Positions 27,897 through 34,866 of a stretch of 60,336 bases of DNA are shown here, piece after piece (positions within the stretch are counted from its first letter, which is position 1; each line of letters opens with the position of its first letter). Under the pieces are notes generated by a model. The model searched no databases. It was not told where the DNA came from and saw only the letters and a list, made by a program, of their open reading frames with translations. Origin of the DNA: Mycobacterium sp. Its GTDB lineage: Bacteria > Actinomycetota > Actinomycetes > Mycobacteriales > Mycobacteriaceae. The position numbers were made by a program, and so were the translations under genes. The stretch is taken from the NCBI GenBank assembly GCA_020438845.1, contig JAGQTV010000100.1:1-60336 (forward strand), given 5' to 3'.

Positions 27897-29027
27897 TCAA
27901 GCGGGAGGGTCTTTGTGCGCGCGTACCGGGGTACTGCTCGGCGGTACCAGCAGATTGCCCTGCACACTGCCCCGGGCAGTTCGGAACGCCACCAGCAACC
28001 AGGTACTGAGGAGCCCGATGTAGGCGATCGCCGCGGCGACCTTGAACACGGGAAGGCCGGTATGCACCGCCATCTGGGTGGTACCGGTGACGAAAGTGCC
28101 GACCGGGAAAGTGAGACTCCACCAGGTCAGTGCGAAAGGCATGCCACGGCGCATGGTCCTGATGGTGAGTGAGGCCGCCAATGCGATCCAAAGCACGGCG
28201 AAGCCCCACACCGGTACGCCGTAGATGACAGCGAAGACGTTCATGACCCGAGCGGTCTCCGGATCAACGGCCAACGCTGCGTTCAGACCCAGAAGCCCAG
28301 CCGCGGTTACCGACTGACCCAGGGGGCCCAGCACGATCCACAGGGTCGGCACCCGGGCCGTTCCCGAAGTTCCGAAATAGGCCAAGCGACTCCAGATCAT
28401 CGTGATGATGATGAACCCGGCGATCAGAGACAGCCCGAACATCGCCCAGCACCCGTACAGCATGGTCTGCCGCGCGGTGCCCGGTGATAGGTGACCGATG
28501 AGCGGTGCGCCGGTGGCCGCCGAGACCATGGGGGGAACCACCGGCATCAGCCAGCCGCCGAATGCGGCGTCCGGTTCGACGTTGTGCTGAGTGAACAGCA
28601 GGTACGGGATGCTGACCGCGGTGAACAGGCCACCAACAGTTCCGGCGATCCAAAGAACCCAGGCAAGCGTGATGGCCCGATGCTCACCGATCAGACCGCC
28701 GCCCACCAGCACGGAACCTCCGGCGACCGTGAGCAGCGCCATCGGGGCCGCGCCATAGAAGTGCGCCATCTGTGGGTTGCGGGCATGGCTGCGCGCCACC
28801 GTCGGGTGCCGCAGCCAATGGCCGCCGACAACAACCGCCAGCACCCCGAGCCAGAGGGCGGCACCGACCCACACCACACACGCGAAGGTGTGCAGCCCGG
28901 GAGGCTGAACGGGCAGTGTCGCAGCGGCATTGGCGACGATCCCGGTTCCCATCACCGATGCGAACCAGTTCGGTCCGATTGTGCCGAGTTTCTCCCCCAA
29001 CACATCCGGCGTATCCGTGTTCGCCAT
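27897..29027 (-). CDS. TDT-family transporter (TehA/Mae1/Ssu1/SLAC1-like)
   Basis: A 376-residue protein with about ten membrane helices and the TDT-family start GPNWFASVMGTGIVANAAATL. The family includes malate carriers, tellurite-resistance protein TehA, the yeast sulfite exporter Ssu1 and plant anion channels. Sequence alone does not tell which substrate applies. The ATG at 29027 shares one base with the stop of the Rrf2 regulator (TGATG), so the two are translationally coupled and probably one regulatory unit. Nearby sulfate-activation genes make sulfite export a fair hypothesis. Confidence 0.85.
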   Translation of the reverse strand: MANTDTPDVLGEKLGTIGPNWFASVMGTGIVANAAATLPVQPPGLHTFACVVWVGAALWLGVLAVVVGGHWLRHPTVARSHARNPQMAHFYGAAPMALLTVAGGSVLVGGGLIGEHRAITLAWVLWIAGTVGGLFTAVSIPYLLFTQHNVEPDAAFGGWLMPVVPPMVSAATGAPLIGHLSPGTARQTMLYGCWAMFGLSLIAGFIIITMIWSRLAYFGTSGTARVPTLWIVLGPLGQSVTAAGLLGLNAALAVDPETARVMNVFAVIYGVPVWGFAVLWIALAASLTIRTMRRGMPFALTWWSLTFPVGTFVTGTTQMAVHTGLPVFKVAAAIAYIGLLSTWLLVAFRTARGSVQGNLLVPPSSTPVRAHKDPPA

Positions 29028-29515
29028 CAAGGTCTCCCGTCGTTGGTGTAGCGGCCTCGTCCGTCCTCTTGGGCCAGGTAGTCGCGCGCCAACTGGCCGA
29101 CGTGCTCAGGGAGCGCGCCGGCTGCGACATCAGCCAGAGTGGTCTGCTCCAACACCAGACGCATGCCGGCGCGCAACGCCCGCCACACGTCGGTGAGAGC
29201 CGCGGTGGGTCCGGCATAGTCGAGGTCGACAAGTGCGATATCACGCACGCTGGCCAGCGGTCCGTCGATGCACCGCAATACGTCGGCCACGCTGATCTGA
29301 TTGGGTGGTCGCGCAAGCTCATAGCCACCGTCGCGGCCGCGATGACTGCGAACGAGCCGGTCGGCACGCAGTTCAGAAAGGATGTCGACCAGAAACTGCG
29401 CGGGGATGGCCTGGGCTTTGGCCAATTCGTCGGTCTTGACCACGCCGCCGGGAGGCGTCGCCGCCAGTTGGATCATGGCGCGGACGGCGTACTCCGCCTT
29501 CGCCGACATGCGCAT
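29027..29515 (-). CDS. Rrf2-family transcriptional regulator (Rv1287-like)
   Basis: A 162-residue winged-helix protein beginning [18 protein letters not shown], with the Rrf2 recognition segment [19 protein letters not shown] and the wing [15 protein letters not shown]. Fe-S members (IscR, NsrR, RsrR) use three cysteines in the C-terminal half. Here I see only one cysteine (VLRCIDG), so a cluster of that kind is unlikely. The protein looks closer to CymR, the cysteine/sulfur regulator of Firmicutes. Its M. tuberculosis counterpart lies beside cysDN, which agrees with a sulfur role, but this is inference. Confidence 0.88.
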
Positions 29516-29552
29516 GCCGCGGATTCTGCCACCAGCGGCCGACGCCGAAAAG

Positions 29553-30623
29553 CTAGCGGTGCCCCGCCCGGGAACCAGCAGCGCTGCGGCTCAGCCTCGT
29601 CGGGCGATCACTGCGACTGCTATCCCCTCCGCCAGGGCTGGCGGCCCGCGCAATCTTCGTGCGAGCAGGTTCGGCCGGCCTGCGCGGCCCGCCAACGGGA
29701 TTCGTCGTTGACGGACCGCCGGTTGTCGCCGCTGCGGCAGGACTGGGCCCAGCTGCATTTCCGGGTACCACCGGGGCGAGAACTCCCGGGACAGTGCGGC
29801 GGTGCGCGTTTGTCGCGGGCGCGACGGGGATCGACTCGCCCACGTCGCCGCGAGTGGGAACCGAGGCTGCCGGGGCTGGCGTGACCAGCGAAGCGAGATG
29901 TCCCCGCGCAAGTGTGCGCAACGCTTCCAGGACCATCCCGGGCGGCCTCAGCGGCGCCGCTACCGCGCTGACTGCGCTCTCAAGCGCGGCCTCGATGTCA
30001 CCGGCCACCAGGGCACGCAGGGTGGCGGCGAGCAACGCGGGTTCCGACACGGCTACGGCCCGGGCCTCGACGGCCGCGGCCATCAGCTGGCGGCTGACGG
30101 AGAAAGCATCCGCCGCAAGGGCGGCCACGAGCTCGGCAACGGAGGCCGGATCCGCAGTCGCAGAAGAGGCGACACTGGTGACCAACGGAACGGGGGTGAT
30201 CGGGCCGCTCAGCGATGCGGCGGCCTCAAGCTCGAATACCTCGCGGAAGCCGACGGGCGGCCCAACGTAGGGAAACGCCGCCGCCGTAAGTTCGGGCTCG
30301 GAAACCGCGGCAACGCCGGTGAGGCCGGCAACGACAGCGTCGACGATGGCAGCTCTGCTGAAGTAGCTCACGTCAGCGGCAAGTGATGAGATCAGTTCCT
30401 TGAGTACCGACAACGGGTTGTTCGACGCCGGTGGTGTGGGGCCGATGGCGTTGAGGAAGGCGGCGTCGAACATTCCGGTCCCGGATGAATCGGTACCTGC
30501 GGAAAGCTGTACCGAGGCAATTTGGACGTCGGACCTAGGTGCAACGATCGGGTTGGCAACAACCACCCCGGCGACCACCAAAGCCACCCCCGTCGTCATG
30601 ATCGGACCTATCGCCCGCCGCAC
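29553..30623 (-). CDS. secreted/surface-type protein of unknown function (paralogue cluster member 1)
   Basis: Not recognised. The 356-residue protein starts at a GTG after AGGAAGG ([12 protein letters not shown]) and has an N-terminal hydrophobic segment (about residues 9-25). An Ala/Val/Ser-rich helical body follows, then a Pro/Ala/Arg-rich tail ending in many Arg and Ser. The body holds an internal duplication: LAAD...SR...VSEPELTAA at about 81-116 and LAAD...SR...VSEPALLAA at about 169-200. It is only loosely like the two genes upstream, but it shares their promoter design, the hydrophobic start and the basic tail. No PE, PPE or PGRS signature is present. Confidence 0.65.
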
Positions 30624-30653
30624 CTTCTCGCCTTCCTTCGTAAATTGGCCCAC

Positions 30654-30676
30654 AGCATAGCTGAGAAATATCTGAG
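30654..30676 (-). promoter_or_regulatory. CTCAG-type promoter of surface protein 1
   Basis: Minus strand: CTCAG, 6 bases, CTCAG, C, then the -10-like hexamer TATGCT (30654-30659). The hexamer ends about 30 bases before the GTG. The same layout stands before the other two surface-protein genes. Confidence 0.55.
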
Positions 30677-30739
30677 AAGTAGACGAAACTCACGGCGTCG
30701 GACATCCCCGGCCAACCGACCGATGGGCAGGATGACCAA

Positions 30740-30785
30740 AAAGCCAGGGTGCCCCCTCCCGAAAAGGAGGGGGCACCCTGGCTTT
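30740..30785 (-). terminator. strong intrinsic terminator after surface protein 2
   Basis: A perfect 20-bp stem (30740-30759 with 30766-30785) and a 6-base loop, 16 bases beyond the stop at 30802, continuing into TTTTT on the minus strand. It would isolate the downstream surface-protein gene from read-through. It has an A-run on the other side and could work in both directions. Confidence 0.9.
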
Positions 30786-30801
30786 GCGCGCGCTGTCGCG
30801 C

Positions 30802-32004
30802 CTACCTGGAAGCGGCAGCCTTGGCGGCTTTGCGGGAGACACCGTGCTTGGCAGTCCGCTTGGGAGTGGACGACTGGGAGCGGGCACTGCGGCCATCGCT
30901 GGCACCTGCGGCGCCGGCCGCCGCTCTCGAACCGGCCCCCTGCTCGGCAACCGGGTTGCCCGCAGCAGAGTCGCCACCGGCACTGCCATTGTCGCTGGAA
31001 GCCACCTCAGCAGCCGGTGAAGCGGTGACCGCCGCCACCGAAGCCGCTTTCCGCGGTGCCCTCGCTGCAGCCGACTTCGGGACAGCAACGGAGGCAACCG
31101 GCCAGCTTGAGCCCACGGCGTTGGCGATGGTCAGCTGCGACTGCTCGCCCCACATCCGGAAGCTCTGGACTTCGTAGCCGTTGCCGACACCCAGCGGACC
31201 AATGCCCGGGCCGATGGTCAGGGACTCGAGTACTCCCGGCACACTTGAGGTGACAAAGCCGTCATTGCCGATCGGACCGAACAACCCGTCGACGACGGTG
31301 TTCCACGCCGTTTCGAAATCGCCTCCGAACAGCGCGTCGGCGGTCTGCGTGGTGATTTCCACAACCGCGTTGAAGGTGGCCTTGACGGTGCCGACGGAAG
31401 TGTTTAGCAGACCCTTGGCGATGTCCGGCAGCGCGGCAATGACATTGGTCAGGTTGGTAATCACGTTGGAGGCGACGTAGGTTGTGGCACCCACCACGGA
31501 GGTCACCGCGTCCTGTATCGGAACGACGATGGCGTTATTCAGCGTGTCGACAGCTCCGGAGAAGTTACCGCTGAAAACCTGCTTCGTGGCAGTGATAAGC
31601 GCTCCCGGCAGGTTCCACACCGCCTCGCTCAGGATGTAAGCGGAGTCGTTCACGGCGTAGAGGCTGTTGTAGACGTAGTCGGCGCCGTTGTAGCCAAGCT
31701 GGCTGATGACCGGCAGAGCGGTGAAAATGAATTCCGGCAACATGCCCGCGTAGGGCTCCCAGGTGTAGTTGTCGTCGATGTCCGCCACATTGCCGTTGAA
31801 CAGGTCGTAGTTGATCCAGCTCGCGGTGTTGAGCATCTCGGAGATGGGGCTGTCCAAACCGGTGAGAGCCACCTGCGCCGCCGATGGGACCTTGACGGTG
31901 GGCACTTGAGCAACGGTGCCTGGCGTCATGGCGATGGCGATGGCGCTGGCTCCGACGACCGCAGCTGTTCCCGCGATCAGTTGAGAACGAAGCGAGATTT
32001 GCAT
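30802..32004 (-). CDS. secreted/surface-type protein of unknown function (paralogue 2)
   Basis: A 400-residue protein beginning MQISLRSQLIAGTAAVVGAS, a signal-like or anchor segment. The ATG at 32004 follows AAAGGAA; seven in-frame codons upstream were rejected. The middle is rich in Asn, Ala, Val and Thr with amphipathic helices and aromatic patches (YNGADYVYNSLYAVND), suggesting a surface or membrane-associated protein. From about residue 290 the sequence is Ala/Ser-rich, ending in a basic Lys/Arg/Ala tail (RKAAKAAASR). Shared with paralogue 3 are the N-terminus, the PGAL...NVI.NL central region, a LFGP-type motif and the basic tail. It has its own promoter and terminator. Function unknown. 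Confidence 0.8.
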   Translation of the reverse strand: MQISLRSQLIAGTAAVVGASAIAIAMTPGTVAQVPTVKVPSAAQVALTGLDSPISEMLNTASWINYDLFNGNVADIDDNYTWEPYAGMLPEFIFTALPVISQLGYNGADYVYNSLYAVNDSAYILSEAVWNLPGALITATKQVFSGNFSGAVDTLNNAIVVPIQDAVTSVVGATTYVASNVITNLTNVIAALPDIAKGLLNTSVGTVKATFNAVVEITTQTADALFGGDFETAWNTVVDGLFGPIGNDGFVTSSVPGVLESLTIGPGIGPLGVGNGYEVQSFRMWGEQSQLTIANAVGSSWPVASVAVPKSAAARAPRKAASVAAVTASPAAEVASSDNGSAGGDSAAGNPVAEQGAGSRAAAGAAGASDGRSARSQSSTPKRTAKHGVSRKAAKAAASR

Positions 32005-32043
32005 TGCAGTTCCTTTGATAGGCATTCGAAGACTGACAAAATA

Positions 32044-32066
32044 AGCTTAGCTGAGAATGAGCTGAG
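32044..32066 (-). promoter_or_regulatory. CTCAG-type promoter of surface protein 2
   Basis: Minus strand: CTCAG (32062-32066), 6 bases, CTCAG (32051-32055), C, TAAGCT (32044-32049). It lies 39 bases before the ATG and has the same geometry as the element upstream of surface protein 1. The ~240 bases between it and the next terminator are relatively AT-rich and hold no gene that I can see. Confidence 0.6.
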
Positions 32067-32311
32067 CAACAAACAATCCGGTGACGCGGGAGCTCGCGAC
32101 CCGGCATAGGCATGGGCAAATCGAAAGAACTTCCCTGATATGCCTCTGAAGTGCTACAAGCAAGCTGGAAGCAGAGCTGCTAGCAACGGCGATTGATCGT
32201 CGAAACAGCATCCGATAGCCGAGGTCGACAGAGTCATTTCTGTGATTTTCCGAATAGAGAATCAGCAGGCGCAACTCGCTGAACAAGTTTGCTGGAGTGC
32301 GCCAAACAAGA

Positions 32312-32341
32312 ACGGTGCCCCTCCCGAAGGAGGGGCACCGT
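32312..32341 (-). terminator. intrinsic terminator after surface protein 3
   Basis: A perfect 13-bp stem (32312-32324 with 32329-32341) with a 4-base loop, 21 bases after the stop at 32363, followed by a T-rich tract (TCTTGTTTGG) on the minus strand. Its core GGTGCCCCTCC is nearly that of the terminator at 30740. Confidence 0.88.
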
Positions 32342-32362
32342 CTTATCTGACTAGTGCGCGGA

Positions 32363-33871
32363 TCAGTCGCCCGCGCCAGCCTTGGCGGCCTTACGGGCGG
32401 CCCCGTGCCGACTCTTTTGATGTGCGGCCGTTCCCTTGCCGGCAGCGGCCCTGGTCGAACCGCCGGCCCTCGGATGCGATCTGCGGGTACTGCCCGCCGT
32501 TGACTGTGAATCGGTCGTCGCCGCCTCATTGGCAGACTCATCACGGACCGACACGGACTCATCAGGGACCGACACGGGGTCGTCCGATGCGGACTCCGGG
32601 GTCGTGCCCGTCTGCGGTGCGGCCGTCTCCAACGCGGCTGTTTCCGACGCGGCCGCAACCGCGGCAGCCGCCCGCGCCCCCCTGGTGGCCGCCGCGCTAG
32701 GCGCGACGGAACTGGCGGACGACACGGGTGGGGTGAAGAGCGGATCGTTCAGGATGCCGCCCCACCTGCAGGTTCCGCTCGCTCCGCTGGCATCGTCGGC
32801 TGAACATCCACCCCCTTCCACGATCTTGGGGTACCCGTCGGTCTGGTCGATGGGGACGTACTCCAATCGGTAGCCGCCCAAGTGCTGGCCCCAACTGGTC
32901 AGCACCGAACGAATGCTCGGAATCGTCACGCCCCAGGATTGGTTCACGTCGTCGTACTGGATGACCCCAAGGCCGGCGGTCAGCGACTCGAACTGGCCCA
33001 GCGTGCCGTTGGGGCCGAGGAATCCGTAGATCGAGTCGTTCCAGGCCTGCTTGAAGTCGAGTTTGCTGATGTCCTGGAAGACCGCCTGGACCGTGTACAC
33101 AGCAGACTGAACCATGTAGGCGGCACCGGCCGCGATCTGCTTGCTGACGTCGCCGAGCAGCCCGGGGAGGCCGATATTGATCACGGATTGGAGGTTGGCG
33201 ATGACGTTGTTCACGATGTAACTGAGCGCGTTGAACGACTGCTCGACGCCGGCCGTCAAGGGCGCCAGGATTTCATCCTTGAGCGTGGCGATGGCCCCCG
33301 CGGAATCGCCTGCCGCCAACTGTTGGATGGCGGCGACAAGCGCGCCAGGAGCGTTGAAAAGAGCTTGGGACCCGTCGGTGACGAGCGCCAGCGGAATGGC
33401 CAAAGCGGCTTGACCGTACTCCGAGAAGTTGTTGGCCAGCGCTGCCAGACCACCGAAGGAGAACTGTTTGACGAAGTCCGGGATCAAGCCCAAGTACCCC
33501 GGTGAGTACTGCAAGCCATAGAAGGCTTCTTTGACCTGGGGGTTTGCGTCGCAGTTGGCCTGGTTGGCACACGTTTCGTACCAGCTGTAGAAGTTGTAGC
33601 CGTTACCGCCCAGGGCTTCGGGCGAAGGCCAGTTCAGGTAACCGCCGTAATAATCGTCGGCGTAGATGCTGCTGAAGATGTCACTGTTGAGGTACTGGAG
33701 CACCGTGCCGACTGCAGAGATCGGGTTGGCGACAGCAGACAGCTGGACGGCTGCCGCCACCCGCTGCATCGACGGAATCACGTCCGGCTGGATCGTCGGG
33801 TTCACGGCGATCGCCACTGCGCCGACGGCCGCGACCCCCGCGATCATCTGCGAACGAAGTGAGATTTGCAT
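32363..33871 (-). CDS. secreted/surface-type protein of unknown function (paralogue 3)
   Basis: A 502-residue protein beginning MQISLRSQMIAGVAAVGA, almost the same N-terminus as paralogue 2. A region with many Tyr, Asn and Trp and two cysteines close together (CANQANC) is followed by the shared central part (PGAL..., NNVIANLQSV, AWN...GFLGPNG, SLTAGLG). A second Cys pair (GGGCSADD, GTCRWGG) follows, then an Ala/Ser/Asp/Glu-rich low-complexity stretch and a basic His/Arg/Lys/Ala tail. The four cysteines could form two disulfides, which fits export. The start follows GAAGGAA. Function unknown. Confidence 0.8.
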   Translation of the reverse strand: MQISLRSQMIAGVAAVGAVAIAVNPTIQPDVIPSMQRVAAAVQLSAVANPISAVGTVLQYLNSDIFSSIYADDYYGGYLNWPSPEALGGNGYNFYSWYETCANQANCDANPQVKEAFYGLQYSPGYLGLIPDFVKQFSFGGLAALANNFSEYGQAALAIPLALVTDGSQALFNAPGALVAAIQQLAAGDSAGAIATLKDEILAPLTAGVEQSFNALSYIVNNVIANLQSVINIGLPGLLGDVSKQIAAGAAYMVQSAVYTVQAVFQDISKLDFKQAWNDSIYGFLGPNGTLGQFESLTAGLGVIQYDDVNQSWGVTIPSIRSVLTSWGQHLGGYRLEYVPIDQTDGYPKIVEGGGCSADDASGASGTCRWGGILNDPLFTPPVSSASSVAPSAAATRGARAAAAVAAASETAALETAAPQTGTTPESASDDPVSVPDESVSVRDESANEAATTDSQSTAGSTRRSHPRAGGSTRAAAGKGTAAHQKSRHGAARKAAKAGAGD

Positions 33872-33907
33872 TCGGGTTCCTTCAGAGCTGGGGTGAGTGA
33901 TCGCCCA

Positions 33908-33930
33908 ACAATACCTGAGAGCAAGCTAAA
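33908..33930 (-). promoter_or_regulatory. CTCAG-type promoter of surface protein 3 (degenerate)
   Basis: Minus strand: TTTAG (33926-33930), 6 bases, CTCAG (33915-33919), G, TATTGT (33908-33913), 36 bases before the ATG. The upstream pentamer matches only three of five bases, but the layout is the same as for the other two genes. Confidence 0.45.
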
Positions 33931-34074
33931 CGGGGTAGCGCTCCACGGAGATTTCAGCAAACAATATTTCCAACGCAGGGACAGGTCAGCGCGTAGACGG
34001 GCGAACCTTCCCCGCGTTGGTCCGGCTGCTCTACTGCGACGCCTCTCGATGAACAGAAGCTAAGAACCCGTCGG

Positions 34075-34866
34075 TCAGCGCAAGGCCGCAAGAACGGCAT
34101 CGGCGTATTCGGGGCGGCAGACCACCAGGTCGGGCAAGAGCGGGTCAGCACGGTTGTAACGCAGCGGCGTGCCGTCGATCCGCGACGTGTGTAAGCCCGC
34201 TGCGCGGGCGACCGCGACCGGCGCGGCCGAGTCCCACTCGTACTGACCACCGGCGTGCACGTACACCTCCGCGCGGCCCTGAACCACCGCGGCGACCTTG
34301 GCGCCCGCCGAGCCCATCGGTAGCAACTCCCCATTCAGGTATTCCATGACCTGCAGCGCGGCGGCCGGCGGACGGGTCCGCGACACCAGGATCCGCGGCG
34401 CCGCGGGTGGCGGCGGGGGCGGTGCGACCTCGGGGGTCGCCAGGGTGATCCCCTGCCCTGGCAGCGCCACCGCGCCGGCCACCAACCCGCCGTCCTGCCA
34501 GAGCGCGACATGCACCGCCCAGTCGTCGCGCCCGTCCTCGGAGAACTCCCGAGTCCCGTCCAGTGGGTCGACGATCCACACCCGATCGGCTTTCAATCGC
34601 ACCGGGTCGTCGGCCCCCTCTTCGGAGAGCACCGCGTCCCCCGGGCGCGCGACTGCCAGCGCCTGCATCAGGAAGTCGTGCGACCGCGCGTCACCGGCCG
34701 CCTTGCGCTCGGCGGCCGGGGCCTCGGCAAGTTCGGCCCGGACCGCCAGCAGCAGCTGGCCGGCATCCTGCGCCAGTCGGGCGGCCAGTTCGTGGTCACT
34801 AGTCATCTCAGGGCTCAATTCAGGGCTAGGTGGACGGCTCACGCCTGGGCTAGACGGACGGCTCAC
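34075..34866 (-). CDS. cysQ: 3'-phosphoadenosine 5'-phosphate phosphatase (inositol monophosphatase family)
   Basis: CysQ removes the 3' phosphate of PAP (and PAPS), the toxic by-product of sulfotransfer, and so tunes sulfate assimilation. The 263-residue protein has the metal-binding motifs SEEGADD, DPLDGTREFS and WDSAAPVAVA. The GTG at 34866 overlaps the cysNC stop (GTGA), supporting coupling. An ATG at 34806 (MTSDHELAARLA) is the alternative and would match the family N-terminus. The codons between them encode a Ser/Pro-rich duplication. Third gene of the cysD-cysNC-cysQ operon. Confidence 0.88.
   Translation of the reverse strand: MSRPSSPGVSRPPSPELSPEMTSDHELAARLAQDAGQLLLAVRAELAEAPAAERKAAGDARSHDFLMQALAVARPGDAVLSEEGADDPVRLKADRVWIVDPLDGTREFSEDGRDDWAVHVALWQDGGLVAGAVALPGQGITLATPEVAPPPPPPAAPRILVSRTRPPAAALQVMEYLNGELLPMGSAGAKVAAVVQGRAEVYVHAGGQYEWDSAAPVAVARAAGLHTSRIDGTPLRYNRADPLLPDLVVCRPEYADAVLAALR

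Follow-up and report, generated by a model that had tools for sequence, protein, structure and literature searches.

A conserved mycobacterial promoter design with a predicted MprA-type repeat abutting the -10-like hexamer of leader-protein genes

Three genes for leader-bearing proteins, lying within a 60,336-nucleotide stretch of Mycobacterium sp. DNA (contig JAGQTV010000100.1; hereafter the window), share a promoter design, CTCAG-N6-CTCAG-S-TANNNT, that is real and conserved in many mycobacteria. The paired repeat, or box, is very probably a site read by the known envelope-stress regulator MprA, as predicted from its sequence. The broader claim, joining MprA as the regulator and its box as the site to repression of the window genes, has slightly less than an even chance of being correct. 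A first-pass annotation had located the three sites and had described sites 1 and 2 as exact and site 3 as degenerate in the distal pentamer, all of which was borne out on rescoring (Table 1).

Table 1. Promoter elements and genes of the three leader-bearing proteins (positions in the window).
Feature	Position	Strand	Remarks
Site 1, full motif	30654-30676	(-)	CTCAGATATTTCTCAGCTATGCT; 0 mismatches to CTCAG-N6-CTCAG-S-TANNNT
Site 2, full motif	32044-32066	(-)	CTCAGCTCATTCTCAGCTAAGCT; 0 mismatches to CTCAG-N6-CTCAG-S-TANNNT
Site 3, full motif	33908-33930	(-)	TTTAGCTTGCTCTCAGGTATTGT; 2 mismatches, both within the distal pentamer
Predicted MprA-type box, gene A	30661..30677	(-)	TCTCAG-N5-TCTCAG, exact
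-10-like hexamer, gene A	30654..30659	(-)	TATGCT, 1 nt past the box
Gene A, leader-bearing protein	29553..30623	(-)	No Pfam/NCBIfam match above cut-off
Predicted MprA-type box, gene B	32051..32067	(-)	GCTCAG-N5-TCTCAG, 1 mismatch
-10-like hexamer, gene B	32044..32049	(-)	TAAGCT
Gene B, leader-bearing protein	30802..32004	(-)	N-terminus MQISLRSQLIAGTAAVVGASAIA; no family match above cut-off
Predicted MprA-type box, gene C, degenerate	33915..33930	(-)	TTTAG-N6-CTCAG
-10-like hexamer, gene C	33908..33913	(-)	TATTGT
Gene C, leader-bearing protein	32363..33871	(-)	N-terminus MQISLRSQMIAGVAAVGAVAIA; no family match above cut-off

The distance from hexamer to start codon, put at 30-40 bases in the first-pass annotation, was measured as 30 nt for gene A (from GTG 30623, a start inferred from homologues), 39 nt for gene B and 36 nt for gene C. 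The structure model of the gene B product was unusable (mean pLDDT 33.8). Rfam returned zero matches at the gathering threshold for 13 loci, and sub-threshold matches only for positions 29000-34400 of the window. A scan of the window allowing up to three mismatches gave a weak excess, with 9 matches against 3.91 expected and at least 9 in 4 of 100 shuffles. Throughout the genome to which the window belongs (4.53 Mb), the exact pattern (S relaxed to N) is present twice, on both occasions at a window site, and the reversed pattern is absent.

The signal is much clearer at the level of the genus. CTCAG-N6-CTCAG-N-TANNNT had 159 matches, in 73 of the 297 genomes searched, versus 3 for the reversed pattern, confirming that the design is a genuine one; with TANNNT moved to 4 nt from the box, there were 14 matches versus 9 reversed. 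A single cluster of leader-bearing, presumably exported proteins, related to those of the window, lies behind 89 of the 117 sites read (those left of the 159 matches, not all listed or fetched, after the merging of identical upstream sequences), so the motif is found mainly before homologues, as had been anticipated. The downstream gene was taken as the longest mechanical open reading frame, which is in the wrong frame in some picks. Because TANNNT was built into this query, the design was re-tested, without imposing TANNNT, on genes picked by protein similarity. In this set (n = 18, including genes B and C of the window), the box scored at least 8/10 in 14 genes (1.1 in shuffles), and 11 had both the box and TANNNT at 1 nt (0.01 in shuffles); without genes B and C, these counts were 12/16 and 9/16, respectively. 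Two of the 20 loci (L037 and L038) had been left out, their match starting inside the gene, and other matches were set aside as additional fragments of genes that were in the count. The absence of an obvious housekeeping -35 element, also claimed initially, was upheld: across 89 such promoters, the upstream sequences come no closer to TTGACA than shuffled ones do (mean best match 3.09/6 versus 3.28 in shuffles).

Searched for without the hexamer, TCTCAG-N5-TCTCAG gave 298 matches in 88 genomes versus 3 reversed, recurring across the genus at the mprA, htrA/pepD and sigB promoters. An exact box lies upstream of mprA in 25 of the 30 fetched loci. All 16 regions retrieved on the 3' flank of mprAB have a box before an HtrA-type gene (identified by HMM for the copy in the window's own genome and by eye for the other 15), and a box was found at sigB in 13 of 30 first-match loci, with more among these 3'-flank regions. 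In the genome of the window, in which the genes called mprA and phoP are putative assignments made in part from synteny, the box is exact at pepD, at window site 1 and next to one other leader gene; it has a single mismatch at sigB (the product of which scores above the SigB model cut-off) and at window site 2. At no more than one mismatch, there are 14 matches versus 4 reversed. The box at mprA in this genome is degenerate (TCTTAG-N5-TCTAAG, two mismatches), as it is in genome G003, and those of G025 and G032 are weaker. The DNA-binding domain of MprA is nearly invariant across the 26 sequences read. He and Zahrt, in 2005, are said to have described the MprA box as two direct repeats of about 8 bp, with an 11-bp period (8+3+8 bp); the geometry of the boxes before the leader-protein genes matches this description, and in those genomes mprA, htrA/pepD and sigB have the same repeat. 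The initial view that the site was undescribed and had no named regulator is not supported, since the same repeat lies at published MprA targets (PMC3062566, PMC12569306); the first of these papers names sigE, sigB, acr2 and pepD as targets (PMC3062566).

Where the leader-protein genes differ is in the position of the box. Among the 150 matches listed, the gap between box and TANNNT peaks at 1 nt (44 matches) and 11 nt (38 matches), about one helical turn apart, and the window genes use the 1-nt register. A further peak at 15 nt (21 of the same 150) is due mostly to the leaderless promoter of mprA; there, 26 of 30 loci have 10 nt between the box and GANACT, two of these 26 having degenerate boxes. 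A CTCAGCG subtype makes up 28 of the 38 sites at 11 nt among the matches listed. At PhoB class II promoters, such as E. coli phoA, about 10 nt separate the box from the -10 element downstream. Like that class, the promoters considered here have paired half-sites with an 11-bp period where a -35 element would lie; the PhoB-type spacing is found at mprA but not at the window genes, where the box lies 1 nt from the -10 rather than 10 nt upstream, so that the leader-protein class sits 9-10 bp nearer to the -10. The 11-bp phasing had been taken to indicate either an activator on one face of the DNA beside RNA polymerase or an alternative sigma factor. It does suit one regulator beside the polymerase. 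A sigma factor reading the CTCAG pair as -35 and TANNNT as -10 would account for the missing housekeeping -35 and for the fixed spacing in the leader-protein class, but is very hard to credit because the repeat is found at three distances from a -10-like hexamer (1, 10 and 11 nt), a variation that a sigma factor would not tolerate.

The mycobacterial PhoP box is TCACAGC-N4-TCACAGC, including the site at phoP; its core, TCACAG, differs from the TCTCAG half-sites found here. PhoP was the first alternative to be named, having the same repeat geometry: direct repeats of 7 bp separated by 4 bp (PMC4832192; PMC3413638). It was dropped because matches recur genus-wide at mprA, pepD and sigB and there is no good site at the genome's own phoP, the upstream region of which reaches a best score of 8 of 13.5 in a scan made with the CTCAG pattern rather than a PhoP matrix. 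More generally, the boxes before the leader-protein genes might be read by another OmpR-family regulator, either PhoP or an MprA paralogue, their likeness to those of mprA, pepD and sigB then reflecting shared half-site ancestry. The 11-bp period common to the PhoP repeat (PMC4832192), the existence of the CTCAGCG subtype and the presence in this genome of 11 regulators with the same DNA-binding domain are consistent with this idea, but it is improbable given that the core letters are identical to those of the mprA, pepD and sigB boxes.

With MprA as the reader, a member of the OmpR/PhoB family would bind as a head-to-tail dimer, one subunit on each CTCAG, 11 bp apart. MprA phosphorylated by MprB would be the form bound to these boxes, TANNNT would be the -10 element, and in the 10-11-nt register activation would probably proceed as at PhoB promoters. 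Less certainly, MprA bound in the 1-nt register would cover about -30 to -13, a stretch that RNA polymerase itself has to occupy, and envelope stress, while turning on mprAB, htrA and sigB, might shut down the genes in this register. Repression of the window genes is slightly favoured over activation, a preference drawn from position only: bound this close, MprA would be expected to clash with RNA polymerase. An activator could account equally well for the constant 1-nt gap and the lack of a -35. From the spacer next to the -10, bound MprA might hold or recruit RNA polymerase, in a geometry absent from its other targets; this is a serious possibility, if somewhat doubtful. It would fit the constancy of the spacing (44 of the 150 matches listed; 159 matches at 1 nt versus 14 at 4 nt), the lack of any -35-like element and the raising by MprA of sigE, sigB, pepD and mprA (PMC12569306). 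Sigma factor needs the DNA adjoining the -10, as polymerase structures show, and the box of such an activator would overlap this DNA. The MprA of Corynebacterium glutamicum also speaks against activation: its sites contain CTAAG or TTAAG, and it lowers one of its secreted-protein targets, cg0793 (PMC12113857). These cores and the secreted-protein targets resemble those described here, whereas the 10-bp consensus given there, TKTTAAGAAM, is unlike the CTCAG pairs (PMC12113857).

Repression by MprA at 1 nt leads to a tentative position code, in which a shift of the box by about one helical turn (10-11 versus 1 nt) reverses the direction of control, such that one envelope-stress signal might switch mprAB, htrA and sigB on and simultaneously switch off, across the genus, a large set of exported proteins that varies between lineages. 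A literature search on MprA and this motif found no leader-protein target class with a box abutting the -10; the CTCAG-pair site itself has been described, and the promoters in which it abuts the -10 seem to form a new variant class. The sequence rule from the scan would predict MprA targets in any mycobacterium, and would tie a widespread set of exported proteins without names to the envelope-stress response. It also distinguishes two promoter arrangements used by a single regulator, the control sign of each being directly testable.

The box is not universal. TCTCAG-N5-TCTCAG is missing from 7 of 88 genomes (G016, G022, G093, G096, G097, G102 and G110), and no box was found at mprA of G016 or G022. 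In five loci searched in genomes without TCTCAG-N5-TCTCAG, no leader gene of the family was found; G022 and G093 retain GCTCAG-N5-ACTCAG upstream of one exported-protein gene, and in this comparison loss of the box at mprA did not cleanly coincide with its loss elsewhere. In a related locus from a metagenome-assembled genome (L021), no box precedes the homologue. The idea that the box is general to the whole leader family was rejected after a search with a second leader-protein type, in which the full box was present at 1 of 30 loci; 7 more of the 30 reach a box score of 8/10, versus about 2 of 30 in shuffles. Many of these 30 loci have, in place of the box, a palindrome resembling ACTTAC-N6-GTAAGT.

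The pattern CTCAG-N6-CTCAG-S-TANNNT lies upstream of all three neighbouring leader-protein genes of the window (A, B and C); the match is exact for A and B, C has two mismatches, and the hexamer ends 30, 39 and 36 nt, respectively, before the start codon. Relatives of gene A start with an RRAIGP-like leader, and its start was accordingly placed at the GTG at 30623 rather than at the open frame's first GTG. The window by itself shows a modest excess (9 matches with up to three mismatches versus 3.91 expected), and in the 4.53-Mb genome the exact pattern occurs only at A and B. Across the genus it has 159 matches, in 73 of 297 genomes, versus 3 for the same pattern read backward, and the shared promoter motif proposed in the first-pass annotation is thus real. 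It was also expected to lie mainly before homologous proteins, and 89 of the 117 distinct sites examined for a downstream gene precede one BLAST-linked leader-protein cluster; the first base of the box is 56–73 nt from the start in 59 of these 89, with starts picked mechanically. The remaining 28 sites are small groups or singletons, including some wrong-frame picks. The consensus is T-CTCAG-S-T-T-N-Y-T-CTCAG-S-TA-N3-T, in which CTCAG, TA and the final T were fixed by the query. As TANNNT had been part of the genus-wide query, it was tested separately in 18 usable promoters, including those of B and C, of genes picked by protein similarity to B. In this set of related, and hence not independent, genes, a box matching at least 8 of 10 positions was present in 14 promoters (shuffles, 1.1), and 11 had both the box and TANNNT at exactly 1 nt (shuffles, 0.01); without B and C, the counts were 12 and 9 of 16. 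With the hexamer at 4 nt, there were 14 matches in the 297 genomes versus 9 for the reversed pattern.

The A, B and C proteins have, by eye, an N-terminal hydrophobic segment and basic C-terminal tails, and are likely to be exported. None has a match above cut-off in Pfam or NCBIfam, and the structure model of the gene B product was unusable. Downstream of B and C, G+C-rich hairpins followed by T-runs, identified by eye, resemble intrinsic terminators, and the three genes would therefore be transcribed separately.

Coordinates of the leader-protein genes and associated features (window positions unless a contig is named)
Feature	Position	Strand	Description
Gene A	29553-30623	minus	leader-bearing protein
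Gene B	30802-32004	minus	leader-bearing protein
Gene C	32363-33871	minus	leader-bearing protein
Hairpin and T-run	30740-30785		3' of B
Hairpin and T-run	about 32318-32350		3' of C
CTCAG copies, same genome	contig C52, about 34497-34580	both	5' of another leader-protein gene

Searched without the hexamer, TCTCAG-N5-TCTCAG has 298 matches in 81 of 88 genomes (reversed, 3), and three locations recur across genomes: the promoter of a gene that we identify as mprA (exact box in 25 of 30 loci), that of htrA/pepD (all 16 regions examined) and that of sigB (13 of 30 first-hit loci, and more among further regions). In the genome under study, an OmpR-family response regulator gene is followed, about 1.6 kb past its end, by that of an HtrA-type protease; from its family and this synteny, we take the regulator to be MprA. 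The same gene order, mprAB-pepD, appears in an excerpt of PMC3062566, which lists sigE, sigB, acr2 and pepD as MprA targets; an excerpt of PMC12569306 lists sigE, sigB, pepD and mprA. The site, initially regarded as undescribed, is therefore a repeat found at published MprA targets. In the same genome, pepD, gene A and one locus beside another leader-protein gene have exact boxes, and sigB (whose product passes the SigB model) and gene B have boxes with one mismatch; up to one mismatch, there are 14 matches versus 4 reversed. The MprA DNA-binding domain is nearly invariant among 26 mycobacterial sequences, which fits an invariant site.

Some observations do not fit. The mprA box of this genome is degenerate (TCTTAG-N5-TCTAAG), which was counted against MprA, and its form is intermediate between the mycobacterial one and that of Corynebacterium glutamicum, for which an excerpt of PMC12113857 gives TTTTAAGAGA at mprA and a site including CTAAG at cg0793. 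Genomes G016 and G022 have no box at mprA; a CTCAG pair is still present upstream of an exported-protein gene in G022 and G093. The wider leader family is only partly boxed, with a full box in 1 of 30 relatives of a second leader type and none at one relative's locus (L021).

The geometry differs between the two kinds of promoter. In 26 of 30 mprA loci, 10 nt separate the end of the box from GANACT, which lies 6–7 nt upstream of a leaderless GTG; a register of 10–11 nt is that of PhoB-type activation. Among the 150 matches listed from a variable-gap scan of 118 genomes, the box-TANNNT gap was most often 1 nt (44 matches) or 11 nt (38); a third peak, at 15 nt (21), stems mainly from the leaderless mprA promoter, and no other gap length had more than 11 matches. 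If TANNNT is the -10 element, the CTCAG pair of the 1-nt register lies near -29 and -18, in the spacer against the -10. The first-pass annotation saw no housekeeping -35, and no TTGACA-like element is enriched across the 89 leader-protein promoters; positions about -12 and -22 relative to the box are recurrently A/T-rich. The intuition of the first-pass annotation was mostly right, and what emerges is a genus-wide set of genes, probably for exported proteins, whose probable MprA box stands about one helical turn nearer the -10 than it does at mprA.

The MprB and MprA proteins are known to be activated by envelope stress. Phosphorylated MprA would bind the box as a head-to-tail dimer; at mprA, htrA and sigB it would sit at the usual place of the -35 and recruit polymerase, and at the leader-protein genes it would occupy the place that polymerase requires, excluding it. 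This exclusion is slightly favoured. It is nearly as likely that MprA activates these genes from an unusual register, as the fixed box-hexamer spacing and the absent -35 would suggest. Repression has a precedent in the C. glutamicum secreted-protein gene cg0793, which, according to an excerpt of PMC12113857, increases 3.45-fold when mprA is deleted and decreases when it is overexpressed; MprA-bound fragments there span -64 to -35 and -43 to -14, with the reference point of this numbering unspecified.

At seven loci and others, related RPY-type leader genes have, in place of the MprA box, a partly degenerate ACTTAC-N6-GTAAGT palindrome about 50–75 nt upstream of the start, so that proteins of this kind apparently have a second regulator. 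Three sets of conserved boxes (at seven, three and three loci) lack a convincing gene start nearby, although the DNA after them is conserved; they could mark MprA-controlled small RNAs, and gave no Rfam match at the gathering threshold. A CTCAGCG subtype makes up 28 of the 38 11-nt matches listed and is possibly read by a paralogous regulator; at seven loci, mostly with TANNNT at 11 nt, CTCAGCG-N4-CTCAGCG precedes genes that presumably encode iron-permease-like, DedA-like and small exported proteins. At four loci, belonging to a group that holds 5 of the 117 sites, CTCAGCTTGCTCTCAGCTAGTTT or a variant lies 178–246 nt upstream of a gene starting MRFGLFIPQGW..., presumably F420-type oxidoreductase-like, which would have a long transcript leader. 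The several CTCAG copies on contig C52 (locus L290) include repeats on both strands, and the gene downstream encodes another leader protein, MDVSARSYLTAGVAALG... At two further loci, TCTCAG pairs lie about 130 nt upstream of a gene that we take to be MmpL-like.
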